IMG/VR virus record: IMGVR_UViG_3300035698_009004
Span: 1 to 38,195 of that record
DNA: 38,195 nt
Direction: 5' to 3' (one strand)
Source: a virus
Positions 1,747-37,797 of the stretch are shown here, piece after piece (the stretch's first letter is position 1; each line of letters opens with the position of its first letter). A model generated the notes under the pieces. The model worked only from the letters and a program-made list of their open reading frames with translations, did no database searches and was not told the origin of the DNA. The position numbers and the translations under genes were made by a program.

Positions 1747-1774
1747 ATATGGGGGCCCGCAAAGGTCCCCATAT
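1747..1774 (+). terminator. Perfect hairpin between ssb-like and primase-helicase genes
   Basis: Arms 1747-1757 and 1764-1774 pair over 11 bp with one G-U pair around the 6-base loop CGCAAA, followed by the T-rich bases TTATTT. It lies 12 bases after the upstream stop and ends just before the ribosome binding site of the primase-helicase gene. It could be a weak terminator or attenuator, or an mRNA-stabilising stem. An ATG at 1749 lies inside the stem, which argues against that codon as the primase-helicase start. Confidence 0.6.
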
Positions 1775-1796
1775 TTATTTGAAAGGATCTACTTAC

Positions 1797-4442
1797 ATGA
1801 GTCAACAGCTATTCGAGGAGTTGTTTAAAGGACGAAACGATTGTTACGGCATGAATCAATTGTGCCTCAAAGAAGCATTGACCTCAGAAGTATATAAGAA
1901 ACATATTGAAGGATTTCAGCGTATAGGTATATACCCTATTATTGATAAGAAATTTACTACATGGATTGCATGTGATATTGACGACAACGATTTTATAAAA
2001 GCAAAGGACATCCAATCCAAAGCAAAGCATTTAGGGTTAGAATCATATATCGAACGGTCGAAGTCGAAAGGGTTTCACGTATGGACATTCTTTGATCAAA
2101 ATGTTGAGTGTGTCAAACCACGATTGATTTTTGAAATGATTTTAAAAGAACTCGATTTCGTATGCGAACTGTTTCCGAAGCAAGATGAAACGAGTACGGA
2201 CAGCCCGTATGGCAACTTTATATTCCTACCTTTATTCGGAGGCAGCGTTCGGTCAGGTAAAAACATTTTTGTTGATAGCCGGGATAAACCAATTATTGAG
2301 GATATTTCCGGCCTTAATAAAATCGTTGTTAATAAATCTTCGTTACTTGATGAGATCATTGACCTCAACGAACTTGTCCGGAGAGAATCTTTTAATCCTA
2401 GTACCGACACAGATCAACCCACGTTCCGGCCATTACTTAAAAGCCCGCCGTGTATTGAAAAACTTAAATCACAAGGCGTACAATCAGGACAACGTAACGA
2501 CGCGTGTTTTCGTTTAGCTATTTATTATAAGCAAAGGAAAATGCCATTAGATGATTCTCTTGCTCTCATTACTAACTGGAACGTAAAGAATGAGAATCCT
2601 TTATCTTATAAAGAAATACAGAAAGTAGTGGACTCTGTATTCAAAGGAAACTATAAAGCTTTCTCTTGTGATACCGCTACGTTAATGGAATTCTGCGATA
2701 AAGATAATTGTCCTATCATCCATTCGCATGATAAGAAAAAGAATATCGCTGAAGGCATTATTACAATGACGTTTCGTAACGACGCGGTTATGCTGTTCCG
2801 TAAAAAAGATTATGAATTCCGTTTCTCTAATTTCGAGTTCACAAAATCGGGTAAGTTCAAAGCATCGTTGACATTATCCCGGGGTAAGACAATGTTGTTA
2901 AGAGATTTTATTAATCTCGGTATGTTAAGTAACCGGCAGAAGTTTGTTAAAGCGGCCGGGGATGAAGACATCGATCTTGACCTGGTTAATTTAGAAGAAC
3001 TCATTCGTAAACAAATCGAGAAAGAAGCTAAAGATAAGATCCTCGAATCGAAACAGCCGTACATGATGACAGAAATGGAAAAAGAAGAAACATTGTCTTT
3101 TTTAAAGAACACACCAAATATATTGGGTAAGGTTATTGAGACAACAAATAATTTAGGTGTTATCGGTGAAGAAACATTGAGGTTAATGATCTACCTTTGT
3201 TATACATCCAGGATAACAGCAGAACCGTTATCTGTAACCGTGAAAGGAGAAGCGTCAAGTGGAAAGTCATTTGCATGTCAGAATATTCAAAAGCTTATCC
3301 CAGAAGAAGGATACCACTTCATCACTAGGGCCACTCAAAATGCCTTCTACCATTTACCGGAAGATGGGATGCAGCACCGTATCATATACATCAATGAAGT
3401 GCAGGGGTCAGAAAGTGCAGATTATTCGATCCGTACCGCACAATCAGAAGGCGACTTGATTTTAATGATGCCGATTAAAGATCAGGCGACCGGTAATATG
3501 GAAACCGTCACGAAGCGCGTCAAGGGCCCGGTCGGGTTTATGATAACGACTACCAAAGCCCGTATGCACAACGAGAATGAAACACGAAACTTTTCAATTT
3601 ACTCTGATGATTCACCTTCATTGACAAGAAAGATCGGGGACATTACAACGCGGAAAGCGTTAGGGGAAGAATTCAAATTAGACGAGAAACAAATTAATCT
3701 ATGGAAAAATATTCAAAGGTTATTGAGTTCAGAATTCAAAGTTATTATTCCTTATGCTAGAGAAGTGTTTGCTTCCTTTCCTGATAAACCCGTGAGGATC
3801 CGCAGAGATCGGGAACGGTTTCGTTGTCTTATTGAAATTGTTACAATACTGCACCAATACCACCGGGAACAGAAGAAGCATGAGAAGTCCGGCAAAACGT
3901 TATTGCTGTCAACGTTGGCAGATTATCACATTGCCAAAACGATTGCCGGTAATGTATTGACGCAAACGATCTTTGAGTTGAGCCCTATTGCTGAGGAGTT
4001 ATGGAAAATCATTCAGCGTAAGAATGAGGAGTACCCGACCGAAGTGCGGACGGAAAGCGACGAGCATGGTGATATGTTTACTTATACGTTTCAGTATAAG
4101 GACCTTGCACACGAAACCGGATGGAAAACAGAAAAGGTTAAGAAATGGATCTATGCGTTAATCGCAAACGGGTTAATTGAGTACGCTGAATCTGCCGGCG
4201 GAAAAGGTGGGCGTGGAAAAGCTTCAACGTTCCAGATAACCAAGACAAAAGACGGCCGAGACTTTTCAACGAAATCGTTAAATTTTCTTCCGGACGTGCA
4301 GGTACTTTATGAACATCATCCCTGCAGTAAGGACATCTTTTATGATCCGTTTACCGGTGAACATATTGACATTGAAACGTTGGATGCACCCGCTGGATTA
4401 CTGCCCGAAAAGAACGAAAATGATGAGGATTGGAATGAGTAA
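1797..4442 (+). CDS. Primase-helicase: archaeo-eukaryotic-type primase fused to P-loop ATPase
   Basis: An 881-residue replication protein. I start it at the ATG at 1797, after AAAGGA at 1782-1787. Residues about 1-180 look like an archaeo-eukaryotic primase domain of the TOTE/prim-pol type: the metal-binding D-x-D is CDIDD at about 60-62, the S-x-x-x-H motif is SKGFH ending at His94, and a third acidic position sits in NIFVD at about 160. A helical primase C-terminal segment follows, with three cysteines (about 291, 300 and 305) that could bind metal. The ATPase core has Walker A GEASSGKS at 484-491 and Walker B IIYINE at 529-534. The C-terminus looks like a winged-helix DNA-binding region. 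It probably primes and unwinds at the repeat-rich region just downstream. No DNA polymerase gene is visible in this window. Confidence 0.85.
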   Translation: MSQQLFEELFKGRNDCYGMNQLCLKEALTSEVYKKHIEGFQRIGIYPIIDKKFTTWIACDIDDNDFIKAKDIQSKAKHLGLESYIERSKSKGFHVWTFFDQNVECVKPRLIFEMILKELDFVCELFPKQDETSTDSPYGNFIFLPLFGGSVRSGKNIFVDSRDKPIIEDISGLNKIVVNKSSLLDEIIDLNELVRRESFNPSTDTDQPTFRPLLKSPPCIEKLKSQGVQSGQRNDACFRLAIYYKQRKMPLDDSLALITNWNVKNENPLSYKEIQKVVDSVFKGNYKAFSCDTATLMEFCDKDNCPIIHSHDKKKNIAEGIITMTFRNDAVMLFRKKDYEFRFSNFEFTKSGKFKASLTLSRGKTMLLRDFINLGMLSNRQKFVKAAGDEDIDLDLVNLEELIRKQIEKEAKDKILESKQPYMMTEMEKEETLSFLKNTPNILGKVIETTNNLGVIGEETLRLMIYLCYTSRITAEPLSVTVKGEASSGKSFACQNIQKLIPEEGYHFITRATQNAFYHLPEDGMQHRIIYINEVQGSESADYSIRTAQSEGDLILMMPIKDQATGNMETVTKRVKGPVGFMITTTKARMHNENETRNFSIYSDDSPSLTRKIGDITTRKALGEEFKLDEKQINLWKNIQRLLSSEFKVIIPYAREVFASFPDKPVRIRRDRERFRCLIEIVTILHQYHREQKKHEKSGKTLLLSTLADYHIAKTIAGNVLTQTIFELSPIAEELWKIIQRKNEEYPTEVRTESDEHGDMFTYTFQYKDLAHETGWKTEKVKKWIYALIANGLIEYAESAGGKGGRGKASTFQITKTKDGRDFSTKSLNFLPDVQVLYEHHPCSKDIFYDPFTGEHIDIETLDAPAGLLPEKNENDEDWNE

Positions 4443-4903
4443 ATATATACATATATTCTATGCTAAAAAAATTGCTAAACCGTTAAAACCGTTACTTTGG
4501 CACATAACGGTTTATTTTGACCTTAAACCATTGGTATCAAAAGAAAATGCCTAAACCGTTATACTACGACGGTTTTCACGTATGCTTTTTTTTTATTTTA
4601 ATTTTCGAAAAAAATATTTTCCTCGTGTAAAAACCGTAACGGTATAACGGTTTAGCAAAATCTGATGTAAAGCAAAGGGGCATATCATGTTGCGTCAATA
4701 CTCGACGACAAACGAATCAAATGTGTTATATACCAAGGGTTTATACCGGGAAATAAACCGTTACGAAACCGTTACACGCGCGTAACGGTTTACGGAGGCC
4801 GTCATATATACCCTAGATAGTATTACTTATATTATAATAATACTTAATATTAATACTATAAAGAATAATAATACTACCAACACAAAAGTTAAGGAAAATT
4901 TCT
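4443..4903. other. Candidate replication origin: iteron-like repeats plus AT-rich tract
   Basis: There is no convincing gene here. The 9-mer AAACCGTTA occurs at 4477-4485, 4486-4494 (directly adjacent), 4553-4561, 4755-4763 and 4766-4774. Its inverse TAACGGTTT is at 4505-4513, 4645-4653 and 4783-4791, with partial copies at 4631-4643 and 4569-4576. The arms at 4766-4775 and 4782-4791 form a perfect 10-bp inverted repeat. About 75 bp of almost pure A/T follows (4803-4880), as expected for an unwinding element. Repeats of an initiator site next to an AT-rich tract, just downstream of a primase-helicase gene, is the usual layout of a phage or plasmid origin. An operator array is the main alternative. 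Confidence 0.6.
4553..4594 (+). terminator. Possible weak terminator after primase-helicase
   Basis: AAACCGT at 4553-4559 and ACGGTTT at 4569-4575 pair around a 9-base loop, with a run of nine T at 4586-4594. The ten-base gap between stem and T-run is longer than usual, and the same bases belong to the origin-like repeats, so a terminator role is only possible. Confidence 0.3.
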
Positions 4904-5212
4904 ATGCTAGATAATGTTTCAGAATTCAAGAAAAAATATGACGGTTTTCGAGAGGCCATGGACTACATGAATAAGCATGTTGCGACATTGAAAAAGGATC
5001 CCGAACGGTGGCAAATTATCCTTTTAAATTTCAAAAATAAATACGAAATACCTCTTGACAAAGCATGGGAAATTTTGAACGAAGAAGAACAGAAAAAGTT
5101 CTTCACATTATACACATTCCGCAGGGAATCAGCGGAAGATGAAATGGAACGGTTTAAGAAAACTGCTGAGTTTTTTGCAGGTGGAAAGATCGTCGGATTT
5201 AAAAACAAGTAA
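4904..5212 (+). CDS. Hypothetical protein, 102 aa, helical
   Basis: An ATG preceded by AAGGA at 4891-4895. The product is strongly helical and charged (for example MERFKKTAEFF) with no cysteine, signal or recognised motif. It is the first gene after the origin-like region and may open a second early transcription unit with the genes that follow, the next one beginning 13 bases downstream. Function unknown. Confidence 0.7.
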   Translation: MLDNVSEFKKKYDGFREAMDYMNKHVATLKKDPERWQIILLNFKNKYEIPLDKAWEILNEEEQKKFFTLYTFRRESAEDEMERFKKTAEFFAGGKIVGFKNK

Positions 5213-5225
5213 ACAGGGGGATCAT

Positions 5226-5771
5226 ATGAAAATAACATTGAATTCGGTAAAAGCAAAAGTGCCATGTAAAGAAGCATATCAATGGTCTGTCAATAGGTTG
5301 AAAGGAAAAGAAGACGAAGACGTTGTTCCTTTCATACAAGCGGCTATGGCGGAAGATAAACTGGAATGGTCGAATTGGTTTATCGCAAGAGTCTTTAATT
5401 ATCAACAGCAATTAAAATACGCTGTGTTCGCGGCGGAACAGGTTCTTGATGTTTACGAAAAAGAATTTCCCGGAGATACTAGGCCAAGAAATGCTATTGA
5501 ATCCGCAAAAGAATGTATCAATAACTCGAGTGAAGAAAACACGAAGAAGGCTCTCGACGCTGGCAACAAAGCTTTATTCGCTTCGTCATTATTAGAAGAA
5601 GGTTTCGCATCTTGTGCCGCAAGTTCCGCGGCCTTTGCGGCCCAAACTGTTTTCTGTGATACGTCGTTAGGACTATCTGCATACGCAGTAGATCGCGCTG
5701 TCAAGGCATCTGTTGATATAGATGAAATGTATATTAAAATTTTAAACTACGGGATCGAATTAATAAAATAG
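5226..5771 (+). CDS. Imm5-like helical protein of unknown role
   Basis: The ATG at 5226 follows GGGGGA at 5215-5220. The frame is open back to 5139, but that stretch overlaps the previous gene and is not used. The 181-residue product is all-helical. It contains AAEQVLDVYEKEFPGDTRPR followed by AIESAKE, then Ala-rich helices with several Cys. That A-E-x-V-L...P-x-D-x-R-P-R-x-A-I pattern is typical of proteins annotated as Imm5-like immunity proteins, which also occur in phages and elsewhere without a toxin. I see no cognate toxin nearby, so an immunity or anti-defence role is only a possibility. Confidence 0.6.
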   Translation: MKITLNSVKAKVPCKEAYQWSVNRLKGKEDEDVVPFIQAAMAEDKLEWSNWFIARVFNYQQQLKYAVFAAEQVLDVYEKEFPGDTRPRNAIESAKECINNSSEENTKKALDAGNKALFASSLLEEGFASCAASSAAFAAQTVFCDTSLGLSAYAVDRAVKASVDIDEMYIKILNYGIELIK

Positions 5772-5785
5772 GGAGGAGGTGTACT

Positions 5786-5923
5786 ATGGCCGCATTGTTA
5801 TTTTTAATAAGTCTCGCGTTTCTTTTTATGGGTCTTTGGCCGGTAACAATTCTTTTATTTGTCGGTGCCTTGATTGTAAACGCGATTGATAAAAGCAATC
5901 AAAGAAGACAAAGGAGACGGTGA
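5786..5923 (+). CDS. Small membrane protein, 45 aa
   Basis: A short ORF with an excellent ribosome binding site (GGGAGGAGGT, 5771-5780). Residues 2-33 form one long or two short hydrophobic helices, and the C-terminus is strongly basic (QRRQRRR), predicting an inner-membrane protein with a cytoplasmic tail. Its stop at 5921-5923 is two bases before the ATG of the PEP-CTERM gene, and that gene's ribosome binding site lies inside this ORF, so the two are coupled. A holin-like, superinfection or export accessory role is possible but unsupported. Confidence 0.65.
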   Translation: MAALLFLISLAFLFMGLWPVTILLFVGALIVNAIDKSNQRRQRRR

Positions 5924-5925
5924 AA

Positions 5926-6546
5926 ATGAAGAAGAAAATGTTTTTATTAGGGGCCTGCTTACTCGGTGCGTCTTTAATTAGTCAGAGTAATGCGGATGCT
6001 ATGCTTATTCTTACATTCGACGAGATACGTTCAAAAAGGACTTATCAGGAAATGAGTGATTTATCAAGAAGATTGATTGAAACAAACAGTCCTTGGATAT
6101 TGAAAGATATCGATACAGGACTTGTTTGGAATCATAGTGGTAATTATACTCACATGACGTATCGAAAGATCGAATCGCAGATACAAGCGACACATAAACA
6201 TTTTGCAAATGATTATGAGATGGGAACGCTGTCAACGTTTTTCAAAAGCCTTCCGGATCCTGATGATAGAGGTATTTATTCCGCGAGCCTGACAACTGTT
6301 TTAGGTGGTTCGAGAGATAATCCTTTTGCAGGCATGATTAATTCAGACAATTCTGAATATGCTAGAGTTGCGGGTTGTTATCCAGGCGAGGGATGTTCAT
6401 GGGGCGTTGGTGGTAGCGGTAACAAAGATACTTGGAACGACCAGGCGGTAGGTGCTTGGGTAGTGAACTCTTCTCCCGAGCCGGCAACAATGGTTCTTTT
6501 TGGAGTAGGGCTAGTTGGATTATTATTAAAACGTAGGAAATGCTAA
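5926..6546 (+). CDS. Secreted PEP-CTERM protein (exosortase substrate)
   Basis: I use the ATG at 5926, which follows AAGGAGA at 5911-5917, instead of the GTG at 5920. The 206-residue product has a Sec signal peptide (KKKMFLLGACLLGASLIS, cleavage near SNADA). The body contains DIDTGLVW and GAWVV patterns seen in other PEP-CTERM proteins. The C-terminus is a complete sorting signal: PEPATM, then a hydrophobic helix (VLFGVGLVGLLL), then basic KRRKC. In bacteria such tails are recognised by exosortase, with the protein anchored in or released through the envelope. The gene is probably host-derived cargo that changes the infected cell surface; that role is inferred. Confidence 0.85.
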   Translation: MKKKMFLLGACLLGASLISQSNADAMLILTFDEIRSKRTYQEMSDLSRRLIETNSPWILKDIDTGLVWNHSGNYTHMTYRKIESQIQATHKHFANDYEMGTLSTFFKSLPDPDDRGIYSASLTTVLGGSRDNPFAGMINSDNSEYARVAGCYPGEGCSWGVGGSGNKDTWNDQAVGAWVVNSSPEPATMVLFGVGLVGLLLKRRKC

Positions 6547-6703
6547 CACTACCCACAAAACACATGGGGAACATGCAAAATAATAGAAATCCTCACGCAC
6601 CACGTTGCACTGGTGCCACGTTCTCAGGATTTTCGGGCATGGATACGCCGGATTCAGCAGGGGCAATCCTCACGCGATTGGTGGGAAATTAAGGAAATTG
6701 GAT
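6547..6703 (+). other. Non-coding leader with short repeats
   Basis: A 157-base stretch without a convincing gene. The string AATCCTCACGC occurs near 6588 and again near 6664, and GCACCA (6597-6602) can pair with TGGTGC (6611-6616) over an 8-base loop. It may contain regulatory RNA structure for the small genes downstream. I see no tRNA features in it. Confidence 0.35.
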
Positions 6704-6820
6704 ATGGCAAAAGAAATTGAAAATCATGGGATTAAAAAGGTATGCGTTTCTGAATGGCGGGAATGTCATTGTATTCAAATAGAAAACATTTTTAAAGACG
6801 TAGCAAAAAAGGAGAAATGA
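6704..6820 (+). CDS. Hypothetical small protein, 38 aa
   Basis: The ATG at 6704 follows TAAGGAAA at about 6690-6697. The frame is open further upstream from a TTG at 6605 through sequence that looks non-coding. The peptide is short and basic, with two cysteines spaced CHC. It sits just before the zinc-ribbon gene, whose ribosome binding site lies inside its last codons. No function recognised; it may be only a leader ORF. Confidence 0.45.
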   Translation: MAKEIENHGIKKVCVSEWRECHCIQIENIFKDVAKKEK

Positions 6821-6822
6821 AA

Positions 6823-7008
6823 ATGCCAACGTGTAATAATTGCCGGCCAAAACTGGAAATGGTTTTAATAAAAAAGAGTAGCGGGGATGTTTATCGCTGT
6901 CCTTTATGTAAAAATGAAGTTCCGGTAGAAGAAGTTGATGCCAGGAATGTATGTCCCATTCATAAACAATTAGTAACTCAATGTGATTGTGAGAGTCATG
7001 CGTTATAA
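6823..7008 (+). CDS. Small zinc-ribbon protein
   Basis: I place the start at the ATG at 6823, eight bases after GGAG at 6811-6814; an ATG at 6817 is too close to that site. The 61-residue product has C-x2-C (CNNC), then CPLC, then CPIH and CDC, so two Cys pairs and further Cys/His ligands suggest one or two small zinc-binding ribbons. Such proteins often bind nucleic acid or act as adaptors; the target is unknown. Confidence 0.65.
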   Translation: MPTCNNCRPKLEMVLIKKSSGDVYRCPLCKNEVPVEEVDARNVCPIHKQLVTQCDCESHAL

Positions 7009-7023
7009 AAGAAAGGAATTGCT

Positions 7024-7206
7024 ATGCCTGAAAAAGAGAGGCACATGCTTCATGTCAATTCGATAATGTCTGAACTTATCCTTGAAAATAAAAAGACGGA
7101 AGACGAAAAGTATAAATTGGCTTACCTCGACGGTGTTTTGGATTTTTATAACAGGATGAAAGAAGATGATATTATTATTAGAAAAAAAATAAGGAGACGA
7201 AGTTAA
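7024..7206 (+). CDS. Hypothetical small charged protein, 60 aa
   Basis: A good ribosome binding site (GAAAGGA, 7011-7017) precedes the ATG. The product is helical and charged and ends in a basic cluster (RKKIRRRS). It is the last gene of the left arm, and its final codons form one arm of the bidirectional terminator that separates it from the convergent late operon. No function recognised. Confidence 0.6.
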   Translation: MPEKERHMLHVNSIMSELILENKKTEDEKYKLAYLDGVLDFYNRMKEDDIIIRKKIRRRS

Positions 7207-7224
7207 TCGACTCCTTATTGTTTG
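7181..7224. terminator. Bidirectional intrinsic terminator between convergent arms
   Basis: AATAAGGAG (7188-7196) pairs with CTCCTTATT (7211-7219), extended inside by C-G and G-C pairs after one mismatch, with loop 7200-7207. Eight A at 7182-7189 give a U-run for transcripts coming from the right arm, so termination should be strongest on the minus strand; on the plus strand the stem is followed by GTTT. The position between two convergent gene sets fits. Confidence 0.8.
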
Positions 7225-7280
7225 GAAGTTTTCTCTACAGCTAGAATAAGCAAAAGCATGAAGACGATATTCTTAATCTC

Positions 7281-7514
7281 CTAGCTTTCATCAAAAATCC
7301 TTTTACTGAAATGAATTTTTAGAGATTCTTGTTTCTTATCTGAAATATTAGAATACTCACCGGACTTTCTATCTACATGAACATAATCCACTCCCGACTC
7401 AACTCGGTACTTTAATCTCCGGACTTCTGCACCGGAAACGGCTTCCCGAATAAGAGACGTGATTTCCCGCAAAGCTTCTGCTAACGCTGTTACTAAATTA
7501 ACGGGCGTGGCCAT
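7281..7514 (-). CDS. Hypothetical protein downstream of holin-like gene, 77 aa
   Basis: The last gene of the late operon. Its ATG overlaps the stop of the holin-like gene by one base (TAATG), indicating translational coupling. The N-terminal half is a helix (VTALAEALREITSLIREAV), the rest polar. There is no signal peptide, so I see no support for a spanin or endolysin. It may belong to the lysis module by position only. Confidence 0.6.
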   Translation of the reverse strand: MATPVNLVTALAEALREITSLIREAVSGAEVRRLKYRVESGVDYVHVDRKSGEYSNISDKKQESLKIHFSKRIFDES

Positions 7515-7750
7515 TACTTATTCCTGTTCTTAAGCCAGTTAGCAACACCGACAAGAACGCCTGTCACGGCCGGGACGATAGCATAATACGCCGTGATGAT
7601 TAATTGCGGCGTACAATCCGTTGTAATTGTTTCAGAGCAGGCCGTGGGTTTGAAGTTTGTCATTGCTTCGACAATACCTAAAACAACGATAGCTGATAAC
7701 CCTGTTAAGAAACCTAGAATACCTTTCTTGAACGTGATGAAAAAATTCAT
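7514..7750 (-). CDS. Probable holin
   Basis: A 78-residue protein with two hydrophobic helices (about residues 9-28 and 50-70) separated by a polar loop with two cysteines (ACSETITTDC), and a basic C-terminus (NWLKNRNK). Size, two membrane segments and charged end fit the class II holin layout, and it sits at the distal end of the late operon. No endolysin is recognisable next to it. A very strong ribosome binding site (AAGGAGGGG) precedes the ATG, and the start overlaps the previous gene by four bases. Confidence 0.6.
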   Translation of the reverse strand: MNFFITFKKGILGFLTGLSAIVVLGIVEAMTNFKPTACSETITTDCTPQLIITAYYAIVPAVTGVLVGVANWLKNRNK

Positions 7751-7953
7751 GTTTCCCCTCCTTGTTTATTTTGATCTATTTCAATAGCCAACTTGGCTAA
7801 CATTACATCAACAGATGCCATTTCAATATTTTCTTTCGTTTCAATCATTTTTCTTAATGACCGTCTGAAAGAAGCATGTTCAATGATCTCAAAGAAAACA
7901 TGTTCAAATACTTCCATCTGTTCATCATTGGTTAATACTTTTATGTTTGTCAT
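7747..7953 (-). CDS. Hypothetical protein, 68 aa
   Basis: Helical, acidic-to-neutral small protein (for example FEHVFFEIIEHASFRRSL) with a ribosome binding site AGGAG before its ATG and a four-base overlap with the holin-like gene. Position between the fibre-like gene and the holin suggests a late-expressed accessory protein. No motif recognised. Confidence 0.6.
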   Translation of the reverse strand: MTNIKVLTNDEQMEVFEHVFFEIIEHASFRRSLRKMIETKENIEMASVDVMLAKLAIEIDQNKQGGET

Positions 7954-9480: not shown

Positions 9481-12400
9481 TTATATACCATGTGCGTGAT
9501 ATGAAAAGGTTCCTGTTGCAGCAGTCGCGTCTAACTCAAGAAGTTTAACGGTGAACCCTGTTGTTGTCGGCGCAACGGTAAATTGGTGCGCTATTCCAAC
9601 ACCGCTTGTAATTGAAATATTAACTGATGGCTCAACATGGAAAGTCTTTGTAAAAGTTACTGCAACTCCGTTAGCGGCAACTGATACGGTTCCAGTATCG
9701 TTTTCGTCAACGTCCGGAAGGTCGGCTTTAATTGTAAGGTCAGAAACGAGGACCGTGGTATCAACTGAATCTCTTGTGATTGTCATTCTGATCTGGTAAT
9801 ACCGGCATTTATAATCCGCTGAAATCCATTCCTCCCAATCACTCCACGTTGCATCATCTTCAGATGTCCGGATCTCGAATGTAAGGATCCCCGGCGATTC
9901 GTCTCCAGTAAACCTTAACGTTTCACTATCGTCAAAGGCCCTGGTAGGATCCGAGTCCCATGCCAACGATTGACCAATCGATGCGATAGCCTCAATAATG
10001 ACACGTGCTTCGCAGATGTATCCGATATCTTTTACATTCGTATAATAATACCCGACCAATTCTCCGGCCGTTAATTTCATATTAGCGCCGTCTAAATAAT
10101 AATTCGTACCGGCTGTTTCTTCAAGAACACGGAATAAGAAGTCGTCGTCTGCATCCGCGGTCCATGCCCCGCCGTCTGCATGATAGGCAACGTTACCGTT
10201 TGCATGAGCGGCTGCTGATTTATCTGCCCGCCAGGAAATGTATTCTGTATCGCTTTTCGTATAATCACCTTCAAGGACAATCCAGTATTTCGTTGTAGCG
10301 TCTAAAGAAACCGCACTTGAAAAAATGAATTTATGCCATTCGGCGGTACTGTTGATCTGGCTGGCTGAAAGATGTATTGAGTGACCGATCGGTGTACCGT
10401 CCGGTTCGCCAGCGTTATCTGCTTGCAGTGTTACCCAAATAGAATCACCGCCACCGGATTGACTTGACGAAGATGAACTGGAAGAAGAAACGCTTTGTGA
10501 AGAAGAACTGGAGCTCTGTGAACTCGAACTGCTTGAACTCGAAGAAGAAGAACTCGAGGACGTTGAACTCGAGGACTGTGAGCTCGATGAACTGCTCTGA
10601 GAAGATGACGAACTACTTGACGATGAATTGCTTTGTGAACTCGAAGAACTGCTTTGCGAAGAAGAACTTGATGAAGATGAGGAAAAGGAACTCGAGGAAC
10701 TGCTTAACGAGGATGACGAGGATGAGGAGAGGATTTGTCCAGTCTCCGCTAACTTCAAACTCAGCTGTTCAACTTCAATCGCACCGACAGTTGTAAAGGA
10801 TTGTGCTAACTTATCGTTTCCGGATGTTACTTTTCTTAAGTCGTATCCGCCATCTTCTCCACTAACATAATAAATGTTTGCGTTATCAAGCCAGTTGGTT
10901 TCTTCCATATCAGTTTTAACTATGTTCTGGAATGGAATATTATCAATGGTGACAGTAGCTTGTTTTGCGGTTACTGAATAATTATTAGAGTTGTCAATCG
11001 CTTTAATCCAATAGGATTGATCTATTCCTGTTTTAATATCCCGTACACTTATTTCGTTACTTGGAATATTTGTTCTTATAACGGATCCTGAATCCCAAGA
11101 TGTGCCTTTACGGATCTCGTATCTATTAACATCAACATCGTCAACTTCCGACCAATGACAAACGATCTGATCTCGATACTTTCTAACAAGGAACGCTGTA
11201 ACGTTTGAAGGCGCTTCGTCTTTTCCAACAAGCGTAATAGAATCCGAAACAGCGCCGTCGGAAATAATGTTTTCTTTATTACGTGTTTTGATTTTGATTG
11301 TATATGTTTCACCAATTTCGAGATTAAGATTAACCCGGTAAGTTATTGCAGATCCCGGCGCTTCACCAACAGCAACGTATCCGTCACTTGCTTTCTGGAG
11401 TTCAATAACGTAACTGTCAAGGTGTTCAATCTTAGACGCGGGGGCTGTCCACGAAACGTTGATATGTGCTATGTGAACGCCGTCGTCGTTTCGCCATCCG
11501 ATCTCTGTTAAGACAATACCTGTTACATCTGTGACCGGAGTAAACGGATTCGGCGGGGACCCATAGTTCCAGGAATCAAAAGAAGACGTTGCATAGCTAT
11601 CATCGAGGATCGAACTGTTATATGCCTTGCATGTGTACTCAGCAACGCCGTACTCGACTTCTTTTATATTGTCAATAGCGAACAGTCCTGCAGTCCAATT
11701 CGGTCGGGAATGAGTAACAGAAACAACGTCGCCGGGTTCAAGAGCAAGTCCAACGACATTCGCTTGAAAACTGCACCACGTATCATTTACTTTTAATTCA
11801 TAATACGCTTTTTTAGCTAATCGCGATGCTTGTGATTGCCGGATGATTCCATGTGCCGGGATGCTTTCTGTTCGTTTCCCTCTTATTTCCTGATCAATTT
11901 CATCTTCAAAAAATTCAACTCGCTTAGGGTTCTTCGTTTCCAACGCGGATATCCATTCAACACCGATTTGGTTCGGCGTGTCTGTGGCATTGCCGTATCC
12001 GTACTTGAACGACTTTCTTATTATGTTATCTTCCGTAAAGGCAACGTTAGCGACTTGATCTGTTTTCTCAACAATGAGTTTATATTCCGCGCCGCTACGT
12101 ATTATCCCGCCGTTAAACACAATGAGCATTTTAGCTAAATTATCGAGTACGGAATGTTTTGTCTCGAGAGCAATGTCGAGGTGATATCTTGCCTCTGTAC
12201 CTCCGTCAATGGTACTGATTGATTCATCACAATATTCTGACACTGAGCCGAAAGACGCATCGTTAATATAAGAAGAAGATATTCCTGCACCGCCAAGCAC
12301 CGGACTAAGAAGCAGGTAATCTCTTATGATAGCGGCAGCGTTGCTCGAAACAGCGATCGCGTTTGTATCCCAACTTTCCGTTCCGGAATTCCACGTCTTA

Positions 12401-12996
12401 ATTTTCCGGCCTGTTACCTGGCATGTTACTTTTGGATTCCCGCTGACTTTATCGCCGGCTGTAATTGTCAACGCTAAATAAGCAACGTCTTTTAATCCGT
12501 AAACAATTCCTTCCGACCGGGAATCAACAACTTGGGATGATGAACCCGTATATGCTGTATAACTACAATTATCTAAACCAGCAATGTCTTGATCGTCAAT
12601 CTGCACATTATCAATAGTTTCGACTTCTCCGATACATAACCCTAAAAATCTTTTAACAGTCGTTTCGGGATCGGATTGCCAAATGATATTACCGCCGACA
12701 GCTAACGGCCCGCCGTAAATAATGGGGATAACACCTTCATTTGAAAAACTGTTAGTCAGTTCAGAACTTGTATATTTAGAACTATAATTTCCAAGTTTAT
12801 CTGCCGTCAAAGCTGAGTATAGCGAATACCCTACGGAAAGAGCTGTTCCCCAAGCAATAAATGGATGAAGCAAAGCAAGTTTCCATGCGGCACTCGCAAT
12901 AGCGATTATGAAACTTATAGGCTCTGCGTGTGCTTCTGGAACGAAGAAGAACATAAACAAAAGTAATAAGAATATTATGCGTCTTATTTTATACAT
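9481..12996 (-). CDS. Tail-tip / host-specificity protein (lambda J, GTA megatron-like) with internal poly-Ser
   Basis: A 1171-residue protein at the end of the M-L-K-J-like series. The N-terminus looks like a signal peptide (RRIIFLLLLFMFFFVPEAHA) followed by more hydrophobic helices to about residue 65. Residues about 80-480 match the baseplate-hub part of J-like proteins (GVIPIIYGGPLAVGG near the start; LEPGDVVSVTH near 430). Two fibronectin-III-like domains follow (about 490-690). A beta-sandwich domain is split by a Ser/Gln tract at about 757-845: one strand (VEQLSLKLAETG) lies before it and the next (SIWVTLQADNAG) after it. The C-terminal 250 residues are beta-rich and may bind the host surface. 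The start overlaps the NlpC-like gene by 13 bases. The role follows from family order; the receptor is unknown. Confidence 0.8.
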   Translation of the reverse strand: MYKIRRIIFLLLLFMFFFVPEAHAEPISFIIAIASAAWKLALLHPFIAWGTALSVGYSLYSALTADKLGNYSSKYTSSELTNSFSNEGVIPIIYGGPLAVGGNIIWQSDPETTVKRFLGLCIGEVETIDNVQIDDQDIAGLDNCSYTAYTGSSSQVVDSRSEGIVYGLKDVAYLALTITAGDKVSGNPKVTCQVTGRKIKTWNSGTESWDTNAIAVSSNAAAIIRDYLLLSPVLGGAGISSSYINDASFGSVSEYCDESISTIDGGTEARYHLDIALETKHSVLDNLAKMLIVFNGGIIRSGAEYKLIVEKTDQVANVAFTEDNIIRKSFKYGYGNATDTPNQIGVEWISALETKNPKRVEFFEDEIDQEIRGKRTESIPAHGIIRQSQASRLAKKAYYELKVNDTWCSFQANVVGLALEPGDVVSVTHSRPNWTAGLFAIDNIKEVEYGVAEYTCKAYNSSILDDSYATSSFDSWNYGSPPNPFTPVTDVTGIVLTEIGWRNDDGVHIAHINVSWTAPASKIEHLDSYVIELQKASDGYVAVGEAPGSAITYRVNLNLEIGETYTIKIKTRNKENIISDGAVSDSITLVGKDEAPSNVTAFLVRKYRDQIVCHWSEVDDVDVNRYEIRKGTSWDSGSVIRTNIPSNEISVRDIKTGIDQSYWIKAIDNSNNYSVTAKQATVTIDNIPFQNIVKTDMEETNWLDNANIYYVSGEDGGYDLRKVTSGNDKLAQSFTTVGAIEVEQLSLKLAETGQILSSSSSSSLSSSSSSFSSSSSSSSSQSSSSSSQSNSSSSSSSSSQSSSSSSQSSSSTSSSSSSSSSSSSSSQSSSSSSQSVSSSSSSSSSQSGGGDSIWVTLQADNAGEPDGTPIGHSIHLSASQINSTAEWHKFIFSSAVSLDATTKYWIVLEGDYTKSDTEYISWRADKSAAAHANGNVAYHADGGAWTADADDDFLFRVLEETAGTNYYLDGANMKLTAGELVGYYYTNVKDIGYICEARVIIEAIASIGQSLAWDSDPTRAFDDSETLRFTGDESPGILTFEIRTSEDDATWSDWEEWISADYKCRYYQIRMTITRDSVDTTVLVSDLTIKADLPDVDENDTGTVSVAANGVAVTFTKTFHVEPSVNISITSGVGIAHQFTVAPTTTGFTVKLLELDATAATGTFSYHAHGI
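10459..10728 (-). repeat. Poly-serine (Ser/Gln) tract in tail-tip protein
   Basis: About 90 codons, almost all Ser with scattered Gln, Leu, Phe, Asn and Thr, using mixed TCN and AGT/AGC codons. It lies in what looks like a loop of a beta-sandwich domain, flanked on the far side by Gly-Gly-Gly-Asp. Confidence 0.9.
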
Positions 12997-30860: not shown

Positions 30861-32099
30861 TTAATCCTCCCTTCCGTAAACATCTATGTACCCTTTGAAT
30901 CTATAATTACTCGTTTCATCCTCAAATTCATAATGGTTAATTCTGTCAATACTCATTGACGAACTGGAACTCATTGAACTTGAACTCGAGGAAGAAGAAC
31001 TCAATGAACTTGAACTCGACGAACTTGAACTCGAGGACATTGAACTTGACGACGATGAACTTGACGACGATGAACTTGACGACGATGAACTTGACGACGA
31101 TGAACTTGAACTCGATGAAGAAGAATCCGAGGACATTGAACTCGATGAACTTGAACTGCTTGACGATGAACTCGACGACATTGAACTCGATGAACTTGAA
31201 CTGCTTGACGATGAACTTGAACTCGACGAACTTGAACTCGATGAACTTAGACTCGATGAACTTGAACTTGAACTTGAACTCGACGAACTTGAGCTCGAGG
31301 ACATTGAACTTGACGACGATGAACTTGAACTCGATGAACTTGAACTCGAGGACATTGAACTTGACGACGATGAACTCGAGGACATACTTGACGATGAACT
31401 CGAAATTGACGCGCCATTATCTGAACTCGAACTTGAACTCGATGATGATGAACTCGATGACGATGAACTGCTTGACGATGAATTCGAGGATGAAGAACTT
31501 GAAGAACTGCTTGAAGATGAACTCGAACTCAATGAACTGGACGATGAAGAACTCGAAGACGATGAACTCGAGGATGATGAACTAAGTGAACTGCTTGACG
31601 ATGAACTCGACGAACTCGAACTTAAAGAACTCGATGAACTAGAACTCGATGAACTAGAACTCGATGAACTAGAACTCGATGAACTTGAACTCAATGAACT
31701 GGACGATGACGAGCTCGATGAACTTAAACTCGAGGAACTGGAACTCGACGACGACGAACTCGAACTTAAAGAACTAGATGAACTCGACGACGACGAACTC
31801 GAAGAAGAAAACGTATCCCAGTTAAATACACTGTCAGAAACGAATAACTTCCATACGGCCGCCGTTGTAACATCATCAAGGATCACTTCATCATCTTGGA
31901 CCGTTACCGTTACTTCAGTTCCACGAACGCCATCGTTAATGAACATTTTAAAATATGTTCCTGCATTAACGGTATCTTCAAATATCGGTTCGTCTTGAGC
32001 CGCGGATTCTGTTGCCGTCCACTTCTCAACACCGTCGTCTATTTGATACGACCATTTTATTGCTGTAGTTCTGTCTTGTAATATATATTCGCTTGCCAT
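30861..32099 (-). CDS. Large poly-serine protein with N-terminal domain and C-terminal cap
   Basis: 412 residues. Residues 1-97 are a beta-rich domain (YILQDRTTAIKWSYQIDDG; later VTVTVQDDEVIL). From about 98 to 381 the protein is almost all serine, with Leu, Met and Asn breaks and one short interruption (DNGASI). The last 31 residues (starting MSIDRINHYE) include FEDETSNYRF. The same F-x-D-E-T-x-N-Y-x-F cap ends the poly-Ser protein at the right edge of the window. The composition makes a soluble enzyme unlikely; I infer a virion surface fibre or brush. The ribosome binding site is AAAGGA. Confidence 0.7.
   Translation of the reverse strand: MASEYILQDRTTAIKWSYQIDDGVEKWTATESAAQDEPIFEDTVNAGTYFKMFINDGVRGTEVTVTVQDDEVILDDVTTAAVWKLFVSDSVFNWDTFSSSSSSSSSSSSSLSSSSSSSSSSSSSLSSSSSSSSSSLSSSSSSSSSSSSSSSSSSSSSSLSSSSSSSSSSSSLSSSSSSSSSSSSSSSSSLSSSSSSSSSSSSSSSNSSSSSSSSSSSSSSSSSSSSDNGASISSSSSSMSSSSSSSSSMSSSSSSSSSSSSSSSSMSSSSSSSSSSSSSSSSSLSSSSSSSSSSSSSSSSSSSSSSMSSSSSSSSSSSSSSMSSDSSSSSSSSSSSSSSSSSSSSSSSSSSSSMSSSSSSSSSSSLSSSSSSSSSMSSSSSMSIDRINHYEFEDETSNYRFKGYIDVYGRED
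30955..31807 (-). repeat. Very long poly-serine tract (~285 codons)
   Basis: Ser codons alternate mainly between TCN and AGT, with regular Met and Leu breaks. The complementary strand therefore reads as Glu/Leu/Asp-rich and Asn/Met/Leu-rich false ORFs. Confidence 0.95.
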
Positions 32100-36036: not shown

Positions 36037-37797
36037 TTAAAAGTTTTCGTAGTATCCTTTAACGTCTGTGTTTATAGTGGATCCGGATACTAAATTCTTA
36101 TATTCAAGAACCTGGCTAGAATCTAAAGCCGATTCAAACTGATAATCGTATGTTCCGCTTGTATTAGCATCTGTACCGATTAGTACATGGTAAGAAAAAG
36201 AACTTCCGTTTGGCCGGTAAGTCGTTCTTGTCTCTGTCGCCGAAGATTCTTCGTGATGAAAAATCCCGATTCTTGCCGTAGTCGGGATATAACCAGAGCA
36301 ATCTATATCAGTAAACGATGTTGCGTTTCCGCTACTTAATACCCGGGCGCCAGTAACAAATGCTTTATCATTAAACTGGTGTAATTCATCAAAGTCGCCA
36401 TCCGATTGATTACGTATATATCCTACCCTTCCATAATAAATATAATCTGTCGGGTTCGTATCAATATCACCGCCTGATTCATTCAATAAACATCCAATAG
36501 TATCATCTTCTTTTCCTGCAAGGTAAACCTCGTACCACGTACTGACCGTTTCACTATCACTTGCTTCAAGACCATTGATCCCGGATGTCGTAACCGTACA
36601 CGTAACAGAAACCGAATCATACGTTTTGACCGTTCCATCTGCTGTAAACAATCCAATCGAATCCGTTGAAACATCTAACTGCGTTGCCATTGTTGTTCCG
36701 CTTTCAACAATAAGATTAGAGTACGTTTGCCCGACACTTGCGGTTCCTGCCGTACTACCGCCCCCACCATCATTTTCATCCGTTCCGCAATCCATCCCGC
36801 CAGCTCCGTCTGATTTCCATACTTGACCTATTGTACAAGCCGTTCCCATATTCTCACCAAGAAGTTCACTTGCCCCGTTTTCAGCAATAGCGTTCGGGAA
36901 CTCCGCGGCGTTATAAACAGCATTTCCGCTTTCTGTTATTACCCCTAACGTTGCCGTTGCAGTTCCGTATTGAGAAATACTTCCAGTATTACTCAATTTA
37001 AAATAATCAGAACCGCCGGTGTTCCCAACTAAAAGATGTTCTTCACTAGCGTCAAGATGAAAGAAATTCGTAATCAAATTACTTCCGAATATCGTATCAT
37101 TTAAAGCGTCAGAACCGCCATCGGTGTTTGTCCTAAGACCATCCGGTAATACCGATTGCCCGGCACCAGCAGCAATATTAATCGCTTTTGGAACATCGAT
37201 CTCGTCGTTTGTGTAGTCATAAGATATTGTAATATCTCCTGTTGCAAGATCAATTTTGAATATATCAACATCTTCATCAACATTCCGGCCGACAATAAAT
37301 CCACCAATAGCTTTTACTGTCTGCGCTGATTCATCAACTTCAACCGCACACGATCCCATTGTATCGCCACCAATACAAACGTCATCTGTCACTGACGTTG
37401 GATGCACAGTCGTCCCTGCATCGGTCCAACCCCCTGTTCCGGCGCCGTCAAGCGAACAATCACCACTTGAACAAGAAAACGCGCCAAAATCAGCATCAGC
37501 TATTTCAGAAGGATCTATTTCTGTACCAAGATAAGACGTACTTCCAGGCAACGCACCGGTTGTGCTTTTAAGTTCTTTCCATTCCCCGGCCGTATCGCAA
37601 TCACCAGAATCCGGGTGGCATTTATAAAGAATCGTATCGTCTATCTCATAACACACATCATACTTCTTTCCATCAGTAATCGCCGTACAATCAGTTGCAT
37701 GTTCGCGGTATCTCAGACCATAAATCGGATCCGCATGAGATATTTCTGCGGACGTTAATAACATCAACGCCATACAAAAAGTTAATAATTTTTTCAT
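36037..37797 (-). CDS. Secreted fibre-like protein
   Basis: 586 residues with a Sec signal peptide (KKLLTFCMALMLLTSAEISHA). The rest is Gly-, Asp-, Ser- and Thr-rich beta structure with fibre-like repeats (for example GNTGGSDYFKLSNTGSISQY, later QVWKSDGAGGMDCG), and a C-terminal beta domain (FSYHVLIGTDANTSGTYDY). Patterns of this kind occur in phage tail fibres and in bacterial autotransporter-like proteins; the signal peptide favours export. It precedes the 1304-residue secreted gene by nine bases, so the two are probably co-expressed. No enzymatic motif recognised. Confidence 0.55.
   Translation of the reverse strand: MKKLLTFCMALMLLTSAEISHADPIYGLRYREHATDCTAITDGKKYDVCYEIDDTILYKCHPDSGDCDTAGEWKELKSTTGALPGSTSYLGTEIDPSEIADADFGAFSCSSGDCSLDGAGTGGWTDAGTTVHPTSVTDDVCIGGDTMGSCAVEVDESAQTVKAIGGFIVGRNVDEDVDIFKIDLATGDITISYDYTNDEIDVPKAINIAAGAGQSVLPDGLRTNTDGGSDALNDTIFGSNLITNFFHLDASEEHLLVGNTGGSDYFKLSNTGSISQYGTATATLGVITESGNAVYNAAEFPNAIAENGASELLGENMGTACTIGQVWKSDGAGGMDCGTDENDGGGGSTAGTASVGQTYSNLIVESGTTMATQLDVSTDSIGLFTADGTVKTYDSVSVTCTVTTSGINGLEASDSETVSTWYEVYLAGKEDDTIGCLLNESGGDIDTNPTDYIYYGRVGYIRNQSDGDFDELHQFNDKAFVTGARVLSSGNATSFTDIDCSGYIPTTARIGIFHHEESSATETRTTYRPNGSSFSYHVLIGTDANTSGTYDYQFESALDSSQVLEYKNLVSGSTINTDVKGYYENF

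Follow-up and report, generated by a model that had tools for sequence, protein, structure and literature searches.

The window analysed here, a 38,195-nucleotide stretch that is the entire, linear IMG/VR record IMGVR_UViG_3300035698_009004, is a tailed phage that carries, as accessory cargo, a gene for an ordinary PEP-CTERM protein of 206 aa (P0001; 5926..6546, plus strand). We give a probability of roughly 0.6 to the reading that this gene is an optional moron, encoding a protein that Sec exports and the host exosortase then sorts for display at the cell surface. We favour it because the sorting tail scores above curated family cut-offs, the gene occupies a variable slot, related phages lack it, and PEP-CTERM genes recur on other viral contigs.

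The gene starts, as read from the sequence, at the ATG at 5926, with AAGGAGA upstream at a usable spacing; the ribosome-binding site, AAAGGAGACG, covers 5910..5919 on the plus strand. An earlier in-frame GTG (5920) was rejected as the start because it lies too near this site. The translation opens with MKKKMFLLGACLLGASLISQSNADA, continues with MLIL and ends with VVNSSPEPATMVLFGVGLVGLLLKRRKC and the stop codon. The first 25 codons (5926..6000) encode a signal peptide with a basic n-region, a hydrophobic core (mean hydropathy 2.37 over 13 residues) and an A-x-A site followed by methionine, a call made by inspection and hydropathy. The middle of the protein (residues 27-182) lacks transmembrane segments (best 17-residue mean hydropathy, 0.37), and the tail, SPEPATMVLFGVGLVGLLLKRRKC (mean hydropathy 2.41), is encoded at 6475..6543 and consists of PEP, a 15-residue hydrophobic stretch and KRRKC. 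The hydropathy profile clearly sets the signal peptide and the tail, both hydrophobic, apart from the soluble middle.

Two profiles recognise the tail above their curated cut-offs: Pfam PF07589 (residues 184-204, E=1.9e-6, 28.2 bits against a cut-off of 20.7) and NCBIfam TIGR02595 (residues 184-205, 24.5 bits against 16). A genome-scale search also returned a nucleotide match at 6475-6540 (E=1.5e-7), whereas none of 14 control genomes matched. The resemblance of the tail is more than chance. P0001 thus has the tail, the signal peptide (by inspection) and the membrane-free middle that characterise members of PF07589 and TIGR02595. The preliminary description of this DNA, which had placed the gene at exactly these coordinates and read in it a complete signal peptide and a canonical PEP sorting tail, was correct on all three points. 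The likeness to named subfamilies is confined to the tail: the floc-linked PepA type (NF033554) shares only this part with P0001 (24.4 bits against a family cut-off of 80), and for the other subfamilies, too, the tail alone matches, below cut-off (for example, 25 against 85 bits).

As far as sequence comparison can tell, the middle of P0001 is an orphan with no demonstrable relative, and so offers no hint of function. No close relatives appeared in viral contigs, genome contigs or plasmids, nothing matched at E<=1e-6 in 395 and 294 genomes of two phyla (about 690 in all), and a PDB sequence search yielded nothing convincing. A single-sequence AlphaFold2 model was uninformative (pLDDT 34). PEP-CTERM proteins as a rule have middles of this kind; fewer than 10% of them match Pfam, whereas about 97% have signal peptides (PMC1569441). 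Two apparent matches were discarded: a tblastn match in the Goslar phage is spurious, crossing stop codons and two genes, and a match to phrog_24523 (E 3.7e-4) is partial and lacks corroboration. A more attractive candidate by eye was a bacterial family with the pattern D-x-x-TGLEWLD ... GSxLVR ... VPEP, which we assembled from genome contigs and of which the P0001 core might be a divergent member taken from a host gene. Residues 60-102 (KDIDTGLVWNH...MTYRKIES) are in register with the start of this family, AVGAWVVNSSPEP aligns with its GSxLVR-VPEP end, and hhalign gave P=0.011. But the family was picked only after the motif had been seen, the core ranked 443rd of 9,946 shuffles against a tail-free profile of 58 sequences, and it came at about the top 1% of 2,000 with a narrower profile. 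Membership failed this shuffle control and is statistically unsupported, and we regard it as improbable; it concerns the origin of P0001 and is compatible with the moron explanation.

The viral nature of the window is clear from its genes for gp33-like and gp34-like Pam3-type proteins, a PrimPol, a D12 methylase, terminase, portal, protease-capsid, tape measure and tail-tip proteins. The P0001 gene is truly embedded in this phage, between the PrimPol/iteron replication module and the lysis and tail genes. Its position after the gp33-like, gp34-like and PrimPol genes agrees with its earlier assignment to a phage early region, and the proposal of an exosortase-substrate architecture on a phage gene was likewise borne out, the gene lying inside a genuine phage genome. 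Alignments of the terminase and PrimPol gathered about 30 related viral contigs, part of them from IMG 3300035698, a co-assembly from Ace Lake, Antarctica (PMC8542988). Because several of these relatives reach 60-64 kb, the 38-kb record is probably partial.

The conserved anchor of the locus is the PrimPol (1749..4442, plus strand), which combines an AEP primase (PF22548, E=5.7e-29) and PriCT-1 (PF08708, E=1.3e-13) with a C-terminal ATPase-like region and is 50-58% identical in relatives. Just 3′ of its gene, at 4477-4791, AAACCGTTA occurs eight times, on either strand (nine copies in the whole window against 0.7 expected), and similar repeats cluster after the PrimPol in several relatives, which makes this cluster a likely iteron origin of replication.

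Several other proteins of this phage deserve mention in their own right. A 412-aa protein (30861-32099) that is mostly a poly-serine stretch adjoins genes on the small-terminase side, and a longer protein with serine runs occupies the same place in the relative L206 (8145-11066). A 586-aa orphan protein with an N-terminal signal peptide (36037-37797) adjoins a 1304-aa protein that also bears a signal peptide and has no match in Pfam, PDB or deposited phages; judged by eye, the latter resembles a secreted polysaccharide-degrading enzyme. The central, J-like tail-tip protein (9481-12996) opens with the signal-peptide-like sequence MYKIRRIIFLLLLFMFFFVPEAHA, unusual for a structural tail protein, and this kind of start recurs in the relatives L208, L219 and L365.

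In related phages, the order PrimPol, iteron cluster, ORF 4904-5212 and then ORF 7747-7953 is conserved, and the accessory slot between the two ORFs (5213..7746) holds other cargo, identified by eye as a DNA methyltransferase, a radical-SAM-type protein, sugar-nucleotide and PAPS-reductase-like genes, and others. The PEP-CTERM gene and two neighbours described below, a 45-aa ORF and an Imm5-like gene, have no counterpart in the loci of relatives, and neither TIGR02595 nor P0001 matched any of 32 related viral records, many of which are fragments. It is this synteny, with unrelated genes filling the slot of relatives, that identifies the PEP-CTERM gene as cargo, and since relatives do without it, the gene is not needed by this phage group and could be transient. 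The same absence from all related records, together with the rapid change of cargo in the slot, would fit a host PEP-CTERM gene that was recently picked up by chance and is useless to the phage. We consider such a passenger rather unlikely: the composition and codon use of the gene are already phage-like, its reading frame and ribosome-binding site are intact, as are its two targeting signals, and searches of the viral and genome collections and of the about 690 genomes of the two phyla found no near relative. Since its codon use and GC3 (0.34) resemble those of the remaining phage genes, it appears to be a resident of the phage and not part of a contaminating host end.

Immediately upstream, a 45-aa ORF with one transmembrane segment and the end RRQRRR (5786..5923, plus strand; read from the sequence, its translation and a transmembrane scan) stops 2 nt before the PEP-CTERM start, and the two are probably co-translated; we found no homologue of this small ORF in relatives. 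Further upstream in the same gene run is a gene for an Imm5-like, immunity-type protein (5139..5771, plus strand; PF21805, E=4.1e-8; phrog_38757, E=5.9e-26), which has a relative in the Methanosarcina virus MetMV and was not found in the related phages, nor has it close relatives among viral contigs. PADLOC returned no match for this protein or for P0001. Downstream, the 270-bp gap at 6547-6816, which has no match in Rfam, contains an imperfect inverted repeat and more than one copy of AATCCTCACGC, and a transmembrane scan identified a small ORF with two transmembrane segments at 7514-7750.

The presence of small transmembrane ORFs on both sides, the 45-aa ORF upstream and the two-segment ORF downstream, would fit a tail that is no more than a membrane anchor, with P0001 staying in the inner membrane of the infected cell as a protein of superinfection exclusion or lysis timing, without exosortase action. 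Any protein with a signal peptide and a C-terminal transmembrane segment with a basic end would be anchored in this way, and on two other viral contigs (L286 and L289) the neighbourhood of the PEP-CTERM ORF includes genes that were judged by eye to be lysis- or lipoprotein-like. A plain anchor, however, requires no PEP-hydrophobic-basic pattern, whereas this tail matches specific profiles well over their cut-offs, so that we find the anchor explanation doubtful.

PEP-CTERM genes on viral contigs are not limited to this phage. Two scans of 2.9 million viral contigs with loose and strict tail patterns were carried out; the strict one retained 18 contigs and about 15 distinct, real PEP-CTERM ORFs with full tails, none homologous to P0001 beyond the tail. 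Some of these contigs may be host sequence rather than viral. Others place the ORF in an evident phage context, beside phage-type DNA polymerase and primase genes (L104), on a contig with RNR and exonuclease genes (L100) or close to a tail-fibre-type protein (L289). Two carry tandem homologous paralogues, three in L036 (8043-9902), whose other genes include a resolvase and a terminase-like gene, and two in L285 (6983-8320), which has an integrase. Like P0001, these paralogues combine a signal peptide and a PEP-CTERM tail on phage-like contigs, but their middles are homologous to one another (27-68% identical) and not to P0001. We regard both arrays as candidate lysogenic-conversion surface proteins, and the retention of both signals in the tandem copies suggests that selection maintains the tag in phages. 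A tblastn search of deposited phages with the tail alone gave no match, a result without weight because, in a control, the low-complexity filter masked such tails. The gene is rarer than a host gene but not unique to this phage. We tentatively propose, as a possibility that we hold less likely than not for the moment, that PEP-CTERM genes have been taken up again and again by phages whose hosts have exosortases, in some cases as diverging tandem arrays, and that the host exosortase then serves these phages in coating or remodelling the infected or lysogenic cell surface; such genes would form a so far undescribed class of sorting-dependent morons.

For P0001, the exosortase would have to be supplied by the host, because the window encodes no exosortase-like multi-transmembrane protein. 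A terminase search of genomes led to contigs of two Planctomycetota MAGs (GC 54-59%), one with an exosortase and the other with none found. Their terminases are 32-35% identical to that of the phage, and they share nothing else with it, their other frames looking bacterial; these matches are too distant for Planctomycetota to be called the host.

The moron explanation follows the route described for bacterial PEP-CTERM proteins, which comprises crossing by Sec, retention by the tail, recognition by the exosortase at PEP and delivery to the surface or the exopolysaccharide (PMC1569441). During infection, Sec would take P0001 across the inner membrane, where the tail, its basic end facing the cytoplasm, would retain the protein until the host exosortase recognised PEP, cut it and passed it on; the final location would be the infected cell's surface or its exopolysaccharide. 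With less confidence, we suggest that P0001 may be a recruited envelope protein of host type that alters the surface of this cell to the benefit of the phage, for example by blocking phage re-adsorption. Superinfection exclusion is our first guess, and a role in it or in aggregation is conjectural.

P0001 shares the tripartite tail, signal peptide and orphan middle with the substrates of the PEP-CTERM/exosortase (EpsH, XrtA) system described by Haft in 2006, which are bacterial, usually several per genome, and accompanied by an exosortase in the same genome (PMC1569441). In contrast, the phage record encodes P0001 only once and has no exosortase. Envelope-modifying morons of phages, among them those for superinfection exclusion, are accessory genes in variable slots with secreted products; the P0001 gene has this kind of location, and its product is predicted to be secreted. 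We know of no envelope-altering phage moron that uses an exosortase tag. In the open-access literature searched, we came across no account of a PEP-CTERM protein encoded by a phage, and in the texts on PEP-CTERM examined that mention phages, bacteriophages or prophages the wording concerned bacterial genes. To our knowledge, a PEP-CTERM protein as phage cargo has not been described. Exosortase sorting is tied to biofilm and floc formation and is biochemically poorly understood. If our reading is correct, phage-borne substrates would be natural single-gene probes of this pathway, phages would exploit a protein-sorting route of their hosts to reach the cell surface, and the hosts of such uncultured phages would be narrowed to exosortase-bearing bacteria.
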